DNA of 12,054 nt. Origin: Verrucomicrobiota bacterium. Its GTDB lineage: Bacteria > Verrucomicrobiota > Verrucomicrobiia > Opitutales > Opitutaceae. A program made the translations under genes and the position numbers. The notes under the pieces were generated by a model. The model was not told the origin of the DNA. It saw only the letters and a program-made list of their open reading frames with translations, and searched no databases. The stretch lies in NCBI GenBank assembly GCA_030916665.1, contig JAUPWC010000133.1:1-12054 (forward strand). The letters are read 5' to 3'. Positions within the stretch are counted from its first letter, which is position 1. Each line of letters opens with the position of its first letter. Below, one piece after another: positions 7,935 through 12,054 of the stretch.

Positions 7935-8531
7935 ATGTCCTCCCCTGATGCCGATCCCCTGGCCGGCCGCATTTTCGCCATCCGCGGCCAGCGCGTGATC
8001 TTTGATACTGAACTGGCGAAACTTTACGGCGTGCAGACCATTCGTTTCAACCAAGCGGTGAAGCGCAACGCGGAGAAATTTCCGGAGGATTTTCGATTTC
8101 AGCTTACACGGGAAGAGTTCGTCGGCTTGAAATCGCAATTAGCGACAACGAGTGCGAATCAGTCTGATAACGAGGAAGATAGCACAAACTCATCACGATT
8201 TGTGATGAGTTCAAAACGCGGGGCGAACTATCGGCCTTGGGCTTTCACCGAGCATGGCTGCCTGATGGCGGCGACGGTGCTGAACAGCCCGCGCGCGGTG
8301 CAGATGAGCCTCTACGTCGTCCGGGCTTTCGTGCAGATGCGGGAAGCACTGACCACCAACCAAGCGGTGCTCCGGCGCCTCTCCGAGATCGACAAGACCT
8401 TGCTCGAGCACGACGCCGCGCTCCGGGCCCTGTGGGGCAAACTCCGGCCGTTGCTGACGCCTCCGCCGGAGCCACCGCGCAAGGAGCTGGGGTTTCATAC
8501 CGGCATCAAACGGCTGAAAGCAAAACGCTGA
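7935..8531 (+). CDS. ORF6N domain-containing (KilA-N-related) DNA-binding protein
   Basis: A 198-residue protein of the ORF6N family, phage-related putative DNA-binding proteins common in accessory regions. The domain runs from IFAIRGQRVIFDTELAKLYG (residues about 14-33) through FPEDFRFQLTREEF, and YRPWAFTEHG to SPRAVQMSLYVVRAFVQMRE. A C-terminal helical segment (VLRRLSEIDKTLLEHDAALRAL) may oligomerise. ATG at 7935 fits the family N-terminus; an in-frame ATG at 7800 would add 45 unlike residues. The central linker (LATTSANQSDNEEDSTNS) is coded by visibly lower-GC sequence and contains a perfect 10-bp inverted repeat (8187-8196 with 8202-8211). It converges on the DpnI-like gene with a 15-nt gap. 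The family is clear; its role here is unknown. Confidence 0.9.
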   Translation: MSSPDADPLAGRIFAIRGQRVIFDTELAKLYGVQTIRFNQAVKRNAEKFPEDFRFQLTREEFVGLKSQLATTSANQSDNEEDSTNSSRFVMSSKRGANYRPWAFTEHGCLMAATVLNSPRAVQMSLYVVRAFVQMREALTTNQAVLRRLSEIDKTLLEHDAALRALWGKLRPLLTPPPEPPRKELGFHTGIKRLKAKR

Positions 8532-8546
8532 GCGCGCGGCGCTGCT

Positions 8547-9314
8547 TCACACCCGCTCCCAGACGCCGCGGGAAGGCTGTCGCAGCAGGCCGCGGTCACG
8601 CAGGACTTGGAGTTGCTGCCGAATCTTGGGCTGGATGTGCCGGTTGTCAGGGTAGAGGCGGGCCAGCTCAGGCTCGAAGGCATAGATGTCGTCGTTTTTG
8701 AAAAATGGATTCGGCAGCGATTCCACGCAGCGAAGCACATCGAGAGTCCAACCGCGCTGTTCGGGCTTGAGGGTCTGGATTTTCGCGATGCGGGCGAATT
8801 TTTCGCGGACTTCACGACTAGGCCGTTCTGTCCCGTCGATGATAAGCGGGATCTTGGCGGAATCGGGAATCAGCGCCACGTTGAGCACGTAGCCGGTCCA
8901 ATGCTTCCGTGCGGCTGTGTCTGAAAGAGGTTTCCGTTTGATGATGACCGAAGGCGAAATGGCGAAGCGGGGGATGACCGAGAGGTTTCTCACCACCCAT
9001 TCGGGCAGCTGGTAATGCAGCAAAAAGAAGTTGGGCGAGCGGTTGTCCAGGATGGCCTCGAGCATCTTCTGGTAGTTTGACCCGAGAATCCTGCCGCCGA
9101 GCTTCTTGCTCTGGCTCTTGAGCTGGTAACGCTCGGCGCATTCCGGGCAGAGAAAGTCACTCACCTGGGCGTTGTTCGCCTGAGCGTCGAGTCGATCACT
9201 GCGACAAGCGCAGCAGTAAAGATTATCCTTTCCCCACGGCTCAGTTATGCGACGCGCCAGCTGCGAAGGATTTTTGTAGCCTTGGCCGAAATGCGTCGGG
9301 AGCCGCAGGTCCAT
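8547..9314 (-). CDS. DpnI-family restriction endonuclease with Gln in place of catalytic Glu64
   Basis: A 255-residue homologue of R.DpnI (254 residues), collinear over its whole length by comparison with the DpnI sequence as I remember it. The zinc site is kept at the same numbers: Cys34, Cys37, Cys56, Cys59 (YCCAC and LCPEC). The nuclease centre has Asp53 and Lys66 (SDF, YQLKS), but DpnI's Glu64 is Gln64, giving a D-QXK site. Such Q variants exist in active PD-(D/E)XK enzymes of the Mrr type. Trp139 matches the DpnI catalytic-domain tryptophan near the methyl pocket. Residues 187-255 (RGWTLDVL to the end, with IRQQLQVLRDRGLL) form the DNA-reading winged helix. DpnI cuts only Gm6ATC. Here a DpnA-like GATC methylase lies 33 nt upstream on the same strand, so altered specificity or loss of activity is likely. 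No clear Shine-Dalgarno is present. Confidence 0.94.
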   Translation of the reverse strand: MDLRLPTHFGQGYKNPSQLARRITEPWGKDNLYCCACRSDRLDAQANNAQVSDFLCPECAERYQLKSQSKKLGGRILGSNYQKMLEAILDNRSPNFFLLHYQLPEWVVRNLSVIPRFAISPSVIIKRKPLSDTAARKHWTGYVLNVALIPDSAKIPLIIDGTERPSREVREKFARIAKIQTLKPEQRGWTLDVLRCVESLPNPFFKNDDIYAFEPELARLYPDNRHIQPKIRQQLQVLRDRGLLRQPSRGVWERV

Positions 9315-9347
9315 GTGCCGCGACTAGATCAGTGCAGATCTGGAGCA

Positions 9348-10643
9348 TCAACTGGATTTCAGGCGCAGAATCTCCGTCTCGCAGCGGACGATGTGGGTGG
9401 TCTGGCGCTTTTTGCCATCGGGCGCGTGCGCCCAGGCTTCCTGTAGGGTGACGTCCACCGTGGTGTGGACCACGCTCGCCTGGCTGACATGGGCGCAGGA
9501 GAGGAACACGAACTTCGATTCGTGGAAAATGCAGTCGGTCTTGGGCGCGCCCTCGGTGGACATCGCCGGGATCGGATCGATCCGATCTGAAATCAGATCA
9601 AGATCATTTTGGGTTTCGACGAAGACATGGAGGCGAACCGCGAGGTTGAAGTGCGCGCTTTCCAGCCGGCGCAGGCTCAGGTCGAGGTAAACGGAATCAC
9701 GCTCGATGCCGACGCAGGTCCGGGCCAGCAGCGCGCAGACCAAGGCTGTCGTCCCACTGCCCATGAAGGGGTCGAGGACGAAATCGCCGGGATTGGTGGC
9801 GGAGAGGACGATGCGTTCGAGGAGGGCGACGGGCTTCTGCGTCGGGTGCTTGCCGAGGCGTTTCTCGTCGGGTTTGGGCGCGGTGAAGGTCCACACGTCC
9901 TTCATCTGCTTGTCGCCGTTGGCGCGCTTCATGTCCGCGTAGTTGAAGCGGTGCCGGCTCTTCTCGTTCTTCGCGGCCCAGAGGATCGTCTCGGTGGAGT
10001 GGGTGAAGTAGCGGCAGGCGAGGTTGGGCGGGGGATTGGGTTTCTGCCAGGTGACCTGGTTCAGCAGCTTCATGCCGAGCTGCTGCATGGCGTAGCCGAC
10101 AGAGAAAATGACATGGTGGGTGCCGCTGACCCAGAGCGTGCCGTTGGGCTTGAGGAGAGCCTGGCAGCGGCGGAGCCACTGGGTGTTGAAATGGTGGTTT
10201 TCTTCGGGGCCTTTGGATTTGTCCCAGTCGCCCTTGTCCACCTTCACCATCTTGCCGTTCTGGCAGGTGATGCCGCCGTTGGAGAGGAAGTAGGGCGGGT
10301 CGGCGAAAATCATGTCGAACACGCCGCCGGGATGCTTGGCGAGAAGGGTGTCCATCACCTCCAGGCAGTCGCCATGGTAGAGCCAGAGGCCGCGGGCGTC
10401 GTCGCGGTAGGCGAGTTTTGAGGGCTGGAGAACCTCGGGGCCTTCGGCGACGATGGCGTCTTCGGGGCGGAACTGGGCGTCGTAGTCGGGGTAGGCGGCA
10501 GACGCGGATTTAGCCGGCCTTGGCGGGGTTCGGAGACCCCGCCCTACAGAAGGACGAGGATGCGACTTCGTCGCAGAGCTTTCGGCGAGAACCACGTTGG
10601 GGTCAACGCGGTCCACCTTGGGGGCGGGCTTCTTCTTCGGCAC
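9348..10643 (-). CDS. DpnA-like beta-class adenine DNA methyltransferase (predicted GATC)
   Basis: A 431-residue N6-adenine methyltransferase. Motif IV, DPPY (115-118), precedes the SAM-binding motif DPFMGSGTT (291-299), which is the beta-class order. The core (about 86-331) matches DpnA (M.DpnIIB), as I recall it, through long stretches: DPPYFLSNGGI, VDKGDWDK, RYFTHSTETILWA, KQMKDVW and GKHPTQKP. GATC is therefore the expected target. Two parts are absent from DpnA. One is an N-terminal extension of about 85 residues, rich in Pro/Ala/Lys, that includes a translated hairpin repeat. The other is a C-terminal extension of about 100 residues (332-431) with no domain I recognise. The start is a GTG at 10643; no ATG, GTG or TTG occurs between the repeat and the core, so translation must begin upstream of the repeat. 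It is the first gene of a probable operon with the nuclease. Confidence 0.93.
   Translation of the reverse strand: MPKKKPAPKVDRVDPNVVLAESSATKSHPRPSVGRGLRTPPRPAKSASAAYPDYDAQFRPEDAIVAEGPEVLQPSKLAYRDDARGLWLYHGDCLEVMDTLLAKHPGGVFDMIFADPPYFLSNGGITCQNGKMVKVDKGDWDKSKGPEENHHFNTQWLRRCQALLKPNGTLWVSGTHHVIFSVGYAMQQLGMKLLNQVTWQKPNPPPNLACRYFTHSTETILWAAKNEKSRHRFNYADMKRANGDKQMKDVWTFTAPKPDEKRLGKHPTQKPVALLERIVLSATNPGDFVLDPFMGSGTTALVCALLARTCVGIERDSVYLDLSLRRLESAHFNLAVRLHVFVETQNDLDLISDRIDPIPAMSTEGAPKTDCIFHESKFVFLSCAHVSQASVVHTTVDVTLQEAWAHAPDGKKRQTTHIVRCETEILRLKSS
9570..9605. repeat. GATC cluster in the methylase 3' half (six sites in 36 bp)
   Basis: GATC occurs at 9570, 9575, 9579, 9584, 9596 and 9602. The first part, GATCGGATCGATCCG (9570-9584), is identical to 10649-10663 upstream of the methylase. 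It contains the 12-bp palindrome CGGATCGATCCG. The cluster encodes the NDLDLISDRIDPIP segment of the C-terminal extension, about 260 nt upstream of the nuclease start. It may be a methylation-sensitive control or operator site; that role is inference. Confidence 0.75.
10522..10548. repeat. REP-like hairpin repeat inside the methylase coding region
   Basis: GGCGGGGT (10522-10529) and ACCCCGCC (10536-10543) form a perfect 8-bp stem around a six-base loop, followed by CTACAG. The same element, with one extra loop base and CTGCAG, recurs at 11601-11628. Here it lies in the reading frame of the methylase N-terminal extension, coding GRGLRTPPRP. A TGCGAC/GTCGCA hairpin follows at 10561-10575 and may belong to the same element. 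Confidence 0.75.
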
Positions 10644-10690
10644 GCGATGATCGGATCGATCCGGCCGGAGAATTGATCAAGGCATTTTAA
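10644..10690 (-). promoter_or_regulatory. Methylase upstream region with four GATC sites and a palindromic operator candidate
   Basis: GATC sites lie at 10649, 10654, 10658 and 10675, 6 to 35 nt before the GTG start. CGGATCGATCCG (10652-10663) is a perfect palindrome, and TTGATCAA (10673-10680) is another. On the minus strand TAAAAT (10689-10684) resembles a -10 element, which would put the GATC sites at and after the transcription start. No well-spaced -35 was found. The arrangement would allow the methylase to sense its own product. Confidence 0.45.
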
Positions 10691-10720
10691 CCGCGAAGCG
10701 TGGCAAAGGCCGGAGATGGG

Positions 10721-10802
10721 TCACCACGAAACACACCCAACACACGAAAGTGAAGGAGTGTGGCATGTTGGGTTGGAAACCGGGACGGGACACCCCGGCT
10801 CC
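10721..10802. repeat. Dispersed intergenic repeat with hairpin (copy B)
   Basis: An ACCACGAAACACAC-type motif (10723-10748) is followed by GGAAACCGGGACGGG...CCCCGGCTCCA (10775-10802). The second part folds with CCGGG (10780-10784) on CCCGG (10794-10798). It is nearly identical to 11653-11682 and related, in reverse orientation, to 4901-4926. It fills most of the 228-nt gap between the methylase and the DUF6883-DUF4926 gene. Confidence 0.65.
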
Positions 10803-10871
10803 AGGGCTGTTTCCCATGAGAACCGCTCAGGGAGCTTCGCTCTGACGCGGGAGTGAGCGCGGCTGCGAATC

Positions 10872-11447
10872 TCAGGCGACGCTAAGGGTGCGGACGTGGG
10901 TGATGTCCTGCTTGCCAACGGGGCGGACTTGGGCGGCGGACAGGCTCGTAACGGCGATGGTTTCACCGGCGAGAGTCATGAATTCCACTTCGAATGCCTT
11001 GCCATCCTGATGAACCAGAACGATCACGCCGACATCACCGGCCTTGAGGCCGTCCTCGGCGACATCGGTGGTCAGGACGACACTGTCGTGTTCCTTCAGC
11101 ATGGCTGCACTATGCGCCATAAGCGGTGACCAAGCGAGGGGTTTTTGGTTCTCAGCGACGAACCAAATCGCGCAGACACGCGGATTGCGTCCATCCGGCG
11201 TCGGCAAAGGTCCGACTATCGCGTAGTTTACACCACGGCCGTCACGCGCCGGCCGGGACGATGCGACCGGGTTGATTCTGGCGTGCGTGAGCAAGGCTGC
11301 AGCAAAAGCTTCGGCCTGAGGCTTTGAAAAGCCGAAGCGTCGGAAGAAGGCGGCTTTGCCGCTGGCGCGCGGGTGGGTCGGATTCAGGAGATACTCCGTG
11401 ATCTTCTCCGGAGGAATGGTTGCCAGTTCAGCGTTGGGCAGCTGCAT
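10872..11447 (-). CDS. DUF6883-DUF4926 fusion protein
   Basis: A 191-residue protein made of two small domains of unknown function. The first, residues 1 to about 108, opens with MQLPNAELATIPPEKITEYL and continues with LNPTHPRASGKAAFF, the DUF6883 pattern; VNYAIVGPLPTPDGRNPRV forms its C-terminal strands. The second, residues 116-177, is a DUF4926 domain: EHDSVVLTTDVAEDGLKAGD, then KAFEVEFMTLAGETIAV and AAQVRPV. As I recall, relatives are usually separate adjacent small genes. Here one frame covers both without a stop. An internal ATG at Met110 or Met116 could still yield DUF4926 alone. ATG at 11447 matches the DUF6883 start. No signal peptide is present, so it is cytosolic. The pair is reminiscent of small two-gene accessory modules, but its function is unknown. 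Confidence 0.85.
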   Translation of the reverse strand: MQLPNAELATIPPEKITEYLLNPTHPRASGKAAFFRRFGFSKPQAEAFAAALLTHARINPVASSRPARDGRGVNYAIVGPLPTPDGRNPRVCAIWFVAENQKPLAWSPLMAHSAAMLKEHDSVVLTTDVAEDGLKAGDVGVIVLVHQDGKAFEVEFMTLAGETIAVTSLSAAQVRPVGKQDITHVRTLSVA

Positions 11448-11692: not shown

Positions 11693-12054
11693 TCAGCTCT
11701 TCTGCATCTGGTGCTCGACGACTTCGCCGTCCTTTTCGTTCACGGGGATGCGCATGCTGTAGAAGCTGCGATAGACGAACACCAGGCCGATGACGAAGAT
11801 GGCGCCGCCGATGGCGTGCTTGAGGCCGGCGGGCATCTTCACGGCGATCTCGACGGCGAGCAGGCCGAAGAGCGTGGTGAACTTGATGACGGGGTTGAGC
11901 GAGACGGACGAGGTGTCCTTGAACGGATCGCCCACGGTGTCGCCGACGACGGTGGCGGCGTGCAGCGGCGTGTTCTTCATCTTCAGCTCGACCTCGACGA
12001 TCTTCTTGGCGTTGTCCCACGCGCCGCCGGCGTTGGCCATGAAGATGGCCTGGA
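11693..12054 (-). CDS. hppA: Membrane-bound ion-translocating pyrophosphatase, C-terminal 119 residues
   Basis: The end of an H+ or Na+-pumping inorganic pyrophosphatase, an integral inner-membrane enzyme that couples PPi hydrolysis to ion export. The frame is open to the window edge (QAIFMANAGGAWDNAKK...), so the ATG at 12040 is internal. Hallmarks are NAGGAWDNAKK and the last acidic motif, VVGDTVGDPFKDTSSVSLN. Two hydrophobic segments follow (FTTLFGLLAVEIAV and AIGGAIFVIGLVFVY). A charged cytoplasmic tail (MRIPVNEKDGEVVEHQMQKS) extends beyond what I recall for short family members. The residues that distinguish K+-dependent from K+-independent and H+ from Na+ pumps lie outside the window, so the type cannot be given. 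Confidence 0.95.
   Translation of the reverse strand, partial: QAIFMANAGGAWDNAKKIVEVELKMKNTPLHAATVVGDTVGDPFKDTSSVSLNPVIKFTTLFGLLAVEIAVKMPAGLKHAIGGAIFVIGLVFVYRSFYSMRIPVNEKDGEVVEHQMQKS

Follow-up and report, generated by a model that had tools for sequence, protein, structure and literature searches.

A three-part GATC cassette in Opitutaceae carries an intact DpnA-class methylase and a DpnI-family nuclease, with GATC sites at its gene starts

We investigated a stretch of 12,054 nucleotides (nt) from a Verrucomicrobiota bacterium of the family Opitutaceae (this whole stretch is called the window below), in which a DpnI-family nuclease follows a DpnA-class methylase and a small third part, orfC. 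The window is the complete contig C363; the assembly to which it belongs has 698 contigs that sum to 4.29 Mb and is 85% complete. A sequence-only reading had placed methylase and nuclease side by side and co-oriented, methylase first, and we found the open reading frames (ORFs) exactly so: both are intact and share a strand, with 33 nt between the methylase stop and the nuclease start. The features of the cassette are:

8547-9314, minus strand: DpnI-family nuclease (PD-(D/E)XK domain plus winged helix), 255 amino acids (aa), predicted to be dependent on methylated GATC (Gm6ATC)
9348-10643, minus strand: DpnA-class beta methylase fused to orfC, 431 aa, GTG start; catalytic part at about 9651-10388
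9348-9563, minus strand: orfC, the C-terminal 71 residues of the methylase, which begin at an internal ATG (9563) and match a small-protein family
10649-10678, minus strand: GATC array 1, four GATC sites at offsets 0, 17, 21 and 26, 5 nt ahead of the methylase GTG
9570-9599, minus strand: GATC array 2, spaced as array 1, 6 nt ahead of the orfC ATG and within the methylase ORF
9323-9331, minus strand: TGATCTAGT, an extended -10-like element (putative promoter) that contains a GATC, ahead of the nuclease start
9337-9340, minus strand: second GATC ahead of the nuclease start

The nuclease is related to DpnI over its full length. Two domains (PF06044, 3.7e-54; PF17726, 8.5e-25) span the protein, PADLOC matched it to mREase_II (1.6e-65), and in the PDB it matched DpnI (4esj/4kyw; E 1e-48) over residues 3-253; its closest relatives among named records came from Opitutaceae metagenome-assembled genomes (MAGs). 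In the catalytic domain of DpnI, L129, R135 and W138 bind the methyl groups, with W138 packed on G140, while R135, N48 and R126 hydrogen-bond the guanines and Q18 the centre; in the winged helix, the double mutant K229A/R231A is impaired in DNA binding (PMC4117772). All of these residues are kept in the window nuclease (Q18, N48, R126, L129, R135, W138, G140, K229 and R231), as are D53 and K66 of the catalytic residues D53, E64 and K66; the residue at E64 is Gln. Because the residues that read Gm6ATC are unchanged, we predict that the window nuclease depends on this methylated site. Gonococcal Drg differs from DpnI more than the window nuclease does, yet it cuts GmATC only; the DNA of gonococcal strain FA1090 is unmethylated at GATC (PMC4269198).

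We next compared nucleases by their genetic context in an alignment of 83 rows (12 methylase-linked, 69 other, and two linked to Dam-family methylases that were set apart), from which two loci with broken nuclease frames (L124 and L137) were excluded, as they were from the tree. The residues that read the methyl groups and GATC were alike in the 12 linked and the 69 other nucleases, with N48 replaced by Gly in 1/12 and 11/69. Gln stood at the position of Glu64 in 12/12 linked and 49/69 other nucleases. We therefore rejected Glu64 to Gln as the mark of a dead or converted nuclease, Gln being the commoner state in the other relatives too. A separate clade of methylase-linked nucleases was also rejected: relative to the other labelled rows, the 12 linked rows required 8 changes on the nuclease tree, against a mean of 7.8 for shuffled labels (348 of 500 shuffles were as low as 8; 60 unlabelled rows left out). 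With midpoint rooting, all 12 fell in one half of the tree (42/83 rows).

The methylase carries a PF01555 domain (2e-59) and is a beta-class N6_N4_Mtase with the motifs DPPY and DPFMGSGTT (DPFxGxGT). It lies nearest to DpnA-class methylases among the records searched, and the plasmid records gave 54.9% identity to the second methylase of pSRQ700, against 40-44% for alphaproteobacterial proteins among the matches listed. The pSRQ700 gene has a DNA adenine methylase on one side and a type II restriction endonuclease (REase) on the other, an operon that we take to be LlaDCHI, with GATC as its target. Against a simple DpnA label, CcrM came first in the PDB and NCBIfam searches.

Relatives of this methylase also occur beside other partners. 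Where a DpnI-type nuclease is absent, G037 and G068 have a MutH/Sau3AI-like ORF beside the methylase, G079 a PDLC03513-type REase, and G102 an ORF of 178 aa that weakly matches PD-(D/E)XK. The PDLC03513-type REase has a DpnA-like partner in G079 but a Dam-family one in G074. In the Methylacidiphilum MAG L077, the position upstream of a DpnI-like nuclease is taken by a Dam-family methylase (TIGR00571, 8.5e-71) instead of the DpnA-class enzyme, here too preceded by clustered GATC sites. The similarity to the pSRQ700 enzyme, the exchange with Dam-family methylases, the shared REase type and a shared GATC array (described below) together suggest that the methylase is probably a GATC enzyme. The MutH/Sau3AI-like partners lend weak support to m6A at GATC, because a Sau3AI homologue can accompany a C5 methylase (PMC10305163). 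By eye, the variable N-terminus of the methylase (10510-10580) seems to contain an in-frame palindromic insert that resembles a repetitive extragenic palindromic (REP) element.

The third part of the cassette is orfC. Methylases of the seven intact pairs found in Opitutaceae align through residue 430 or 431, whereas for five methylases that have no DpnI-type nuclease the alignment ends at residues 328-333, and three more gave shorter partial matches. The 71-residue orfC part matched 64 database proteins, 43-122 aa in length and including fragments, in a search whose size range leaves out fused proteins. orfC occurred in 4/387 genomes of the phylum, each an Opitutaceae genome with this nuclease. 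Across the nuclease loci described below, full-length orfC was found only alongside an intact DpnA-like methylase (seven of one form and four of another), with remnants in L064 and L073. In L110 the equivalent of orfC is a separate ORF in another frame that overlaps the methylase end; the acidobacterial form is divergent, and its kinship to orfC is probable (hhalign E 1.9e-4, probability 47%). G049, which lacks the adjacent methylase, still has orfC ahead of its nuclease, and as a protein it differs little from the window orfC, with nonsynonymous divergence (dN) of 0.12 and synonymous divergence (dS) of 1.96. Zinc-ribbon-like ORFs of 50-62 aa occupy the place of orfC before the nuclease at two loci (L071:5817-5978 and L077:1172-1357).

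A confident structure model of orfC (mean pLDDT 88.3) has strands and two helices, and found no structural relative in the PDB (best match E 1.2). In Pfam, three other orfC proteins had no match and that of L088 matched only DUF6834_C, at 0.14; the three orfC proteins compared with NCBIfam and PADLOC had none there. We regard orfC as a candidate regulator or nuclease inhibitor.

All parts of the cassette begin near GATC sites. The sequence TTGATC-N11-CGGATCGATCCGATC lies before the methylase GTG and recurs with equal spacing before the orfC ATG (arrays 1 and 2), and 17 such arrays were found across 28 loci; 14 arrays in 18 loci compared with none in 20 second-order Markov simulations. In an alignment of the arrays the GATC columns are conserved by the selection of rows, but the CG and C between the GATC sites and the leading TT were also invariant, though rows were chosen by GATC only. 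Mean conservation was 0.68 in the 13-nt spacer and 0.55-0.59 in the flanks. The array precedes DpnA-like methylases, the Dam-family methylase of G074, orfC (the window and G001) and, in L071, a zinc-ribbon-like ORF; in G149 it stands before the nuclease, following the region of the methylase start codon. Methylases without a DpnI-type nuclease also have it (G068, G074, G079 and G121). A looser form of the pattern occurred at 20 places in 18/150 genomes of the family (reversed control, 0): ahead of 12 DpnA-like methylases or their relics, two orfC, one nuclease and one Dam-family gene, and four times elsewhere. Sixteen of the 20 places lie in GATC cassettes or their relics, and the two in the genome of the window are both in this cassette. 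Avoidance of GATC was uninformative, with observed/expected values of 0.64-1.10 in 20 Opitutaceae loci (GAT*ATC/AT estimate).

At the nuclease start, a GATC lies 13-16 nt ahead, inside TGATCTA, and TGATCTAAT may be read as an extended -10. We examined this region in 80 nuclease loci, the best 80 of 562 confirmed relatives from a pattern scan and so not a random sample. TGATCTA occurred within 80 nt of the nuclease start in 7/10 methylase-linked loci, 5/5 loci with a methylase relic or distant methylase, 1/2 Dam-linked loci and 4/63 others. The relic or distant-methylase group is our own grouping (L064, L069, L071, L073 and L088, the last with a DpnA-like methylase 3.4 kb upstream); the four others are L076, whose genome has a DpnA-like methylase on another contig, L091 (at -47), L107 and L112. 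Any GATC within this distance was found in 10/10 methylase-linked loci. Ten DpnI-like loci for which no DpnA- or Dam-type methylase was counted, mostly from archaeal MAGs, have GATC sites (e.g. agatctttagatca) in the 45 nt or so ahead of the nuclease (L084, L086, L092, L099, L104, L106, L120, L124, L128 and L134). GATC methylation may therefore exert control beyond the present cassette.

We then asked how often the two genes occur together, searching 252 Opitutaceae genomes for the nuclease and 150 for the methylase (the methylase of G507 was checked through its locus, L071). The nuclease was present in 11/252 genomes, and 7/11 have an intact methylase-orfC directly upstream. The remaining four (G039, G049, G149 and G507) have no adjacent DpnA-like methylase and keep orfC, part of orfC or a GATC array; these remnants point to deletion or exchange. 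Genome-wide, neither PF02086 nor a close DpnA-like methylase turned up in G039 (93% complete) or G149 (98%), the latter having PF01555 methylases of other kinds. With a D12-class methylase in G049 and a Dam-family match under the cut-off in G507, these two genomes may have another GATC methylase.

Intact pairs also occur outside Opitutaceae. An intact, co-oriented DpnA-like methylase lies upstream of the nuclease in 10 of the 80 loci: five from Opitutaceae or Opitutae MAGs, another verrucomicrobial MAG (L079), three from Acidobacteria (L082, L085, L110) and one from Sumerlaeaceae (L087). Not counted as linked were L093, L096, L102, L103, L128, L132 and L135 (weak matches to other beta-class proteins), L119 (DpnA-like methylase on the opposite strand) and L094 (a shortened one). 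A truncated DpnA-like methylase stands with an intact nuclease in L098, L101 and L108, and a methylase with a broken nuclease in L137; in N. gonorrhoeae the methylase after drg is interrupted. A Dam-family methylase lies upstream of the nuclease in 2/80 loci (L077 and L133). In L133 (4997-6771), a Flavobacterium MAG, it is intact and ends 2 nt before the DpnI-like nuclease, with few GATC sites and no array. Viral contigs yielded no orfC and one partial nuclease, and phage records one partial nuclease match; we rejected a phage origin of the cassette. The part of the Lake Biwa metaepigenome report that we consulted (PMC6329791) mentions no GATC methylation for its Verrucomicrobia bins and makes no tie to the cassette.

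In Opitutaceae one gene end recurs as the neighbour of GATC cassettes of different make-up. The C-terminal end of hppA, for an H+-pyrophosphatase, lies at 11693-12040 on the minus strand, outside the cassette, and this hppA end (73-83% identity) is shared by the window, L026, L029, L030, L033, L168 and L169 among 20 loci; L024 and L032 have a more distant pyrophosphatase. Cassettes found at hppA comprise methylase-orfC-DpnI, orfC-DpnI, a methylase with a MutH/Sau3AI-like ORF, a Dam-type methylase with a REase, and a methylase relic.

Methylase, orfC part and nuclease are under purifying selection. Pairwise dN/dS between Opitutaceae copies was 0.22-0.34 for the methylase, 0.04-0.23 for its C-terminal part and 0.10-0.13 for the nuclease in 5/6 genome pairs, the sixth being saturated. 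Between the window and G073, G096 and G133, synonymous divergence of the methylase (0.34-0.83) was about one third to one half of that of the nuclease (1.2-1.7).

As far as the two proteins can be read, the conflict between a GATC methylase and a Gm6ATC nuclease looks real. Since the gene starts of the cassette have GATC sites which the cassette's methylase would be expected to modify, we favour control at the level of expression. Promoter methylation is in print as a control of restriction-modification (R-M) for CfrBI, four GATC sites form a bistable switch in opvAB (PMC6677893), and tight expression has been named as a way round the conflict between such a nuclease and a methylase (PMC11037411). 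The cassette would then consist of methylase, orfC and a DpnI-type nuclease in the slot usually held by a restriction enzyme. The methylase would make Gm6ATC, and methylation of the GATC sites in the start regions would change transcription, such that the nuclease would be off while its start region is methylated and would be made only in an unmethylated cell. The two activities would thereby exclude each other in time or between cells. We hold this methylation-gated, mutually exclusive expression tentatively, at somewhat less than an even chance, with its direction and dynamics presumed. Among the options in the sequence-only reading, a silent nuclease comes nearest to it.

A more specific form, which we consider doubtful, is a self-contained epigenetic toggle: with methylated starts the nuclease would be silent and the cell DpnII-like, with unmethylated starts the nuclease would be made and the cell DpnI-like, and orfC would separate the states. 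If so, one cassette would hold both immune states that pneumococcus splits between strains, and phage from one sister cell would be restricted by a sister in the opposite state.

Several observations weigh against methylation-gated expression. The repeated loss or breakage of one partner suggests that the pair is costly, and a switch from the unmethylated to the methylated state would pass through a phase with both enzymes present. Any GATC ahead of the nuclease start was also found in 28/63 other loci (summed expectation 17.5), the full TGATCTA is absent from 3/10 linked loci, and L107 and L112 have TGATCTA, yet no DpnA- or Dam-type methylase was found in their genomes. A promoter scan of 8400-10900 found no sigma-70-like promoter. 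Gln at Glu64 leaves the activity of the window nuclease uncertain, though 49/69 others share it. Finally, CcrM was the top match of the methylase both in the PDB (2.7e-56, against 3e-33 for two H. pylori chains named DpnA) and in NCBIfam, there far under its cut-off (233 of 830 bits).

The loss of partners also speaks for slow decay, in which DpnI-type genes would enter GATC methylase operons by cassette exchange, one partner would be silent and later lost, and intact pairs would be transitional. The four family genomes without the methylase but with remnants, the broken partners in L098, L101, L108, L137 and the gonococcus, and the scatter of the methylase-linked label on the nuclease tree all fit this account. 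Purifying selection on both ORFs and orfC, and the breadth of intact pairs, which span three named phyla and come with a third gene and conserved GATC sites, argue against mere debris, while the repeated breakage keeps decay alive; we judge it rather unlikely as the explanation.

The main rival, though also unlikely, is a mark-and-kill or suicide system. Here the methylase would normally be off and be switched on by infection, phage and host GATC sites would both become methylated, and the nuclease would destroy the DNA; Pgl, and likewise abortive infection, is the comparison. Two intact, conserved enzymes and a predicted GmATC-dependent nuclease are what this account expects, and transcription activated by methylation would account just as well for the GATC sites at the gene starts. 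However, the array also precedes methylases without a DpnI-type nuclease (the four genomes named above) and so is not special to killing, no infection sensor was seen, and methylation inside a -10 element more often lowers transcription.

The remaining accounts would remove the conflict between the enzymes. A methylase with another target was an option in the sequence-only reading. GANTC would be an example, and the CcrM matches bear on it: the target of CcrM is GANTC, and sequence cannot give specificity with certainty. The closer similarity of the window methylase to the pSRQ700 methylase than to the alphaproteobacterial group, and its associations (exchange with Dam-family methylases, a common REase type and the GATC arrays), make a target other than GATC unlikely, and we give an absence of conflict on this ground little credence. 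Least probable of all is the main idea of that reading, a DpnI fold turned into a conventional R-M enzyme that cuts unmethylated GATC while the methylase protects the host, for which the operon-like layout and a slot held in relatives by other nucleases or REases would speak, and which is argued against because the methyl-reading residues are kept and 4/11 nuclease genomes lack the adjacent methylase, two of them with no Dam-family or close DpnA-like methylase found.

Comparison with known systems places the cassette among familiar enzymes in an unfamiliar combination. DpnI of Streptococcus pneumoniae and Drg of Neisseria have the same two full-length domains, and the window nuclease keeps the methyl- and GATC-reading residues of DpnI; those enzymes act without a working GATC methylase (PMC3573125, PMC4269198), whereas here an intact methylase and orfC lie upstream and Glu64 is Gln. 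With GATC R-M systems of the DpnII/LlaDCHI type the cassette shares the second methylase class (DpnA), but it has no Dam-type first methylase or DpnII-type REase, its downstream nuclease is DpnI-type and orfC is fused. Like the pneumococcal DpnI/DpnII locus (PMC3573125), hppA in Opitutaceae hosts alternative GATC cassettes at one gene; unlike it, the window cassette holds both opposing activities. A survey of winged-helix nucleases reports 87% of DpnI-type nucleases without a methylase within three genes and frameshifted 4mC/6mA methylases where these are directly adjacent (PMC11037411), whereas the methylase here is intact, conserved and tied to GATC arrays. The four GATC sites in a regulatory stretch recall the Dam-controlled switch of opvAB (PMC6677893); unlike opvAB, the window cassette would have a methylase among the genes controlled. 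The nuclease of a conventional type II R-M system should not persist without its methylase, whereas four Opitutaceae genomes have this nuclease with no DpnA-like methylase adjacent.

In the open-licence literature searched, neither orfC nor an intact cassette of DpnI and methylase with GATC arrays was reported. The enzymes are of known kinds; what appears new is the intact conserved pair, together with the third protein and the layout of GATC sites. GATC methylation and DpnI are a textbook case of activities expected not to coexist in one cell, and the cassette offers a concrete, testable way for one genome to carry both. If methylation-gated expression holds, restriction, possible abortive defence and Dam-type epigenetic switching would be joined at one locus.

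Adjoining the cassette, at 7935-8531 on the plus strand, is an ORF6N-domain gene (PADLOC PDC-S05) with relatives in the G096 and G133 loci.

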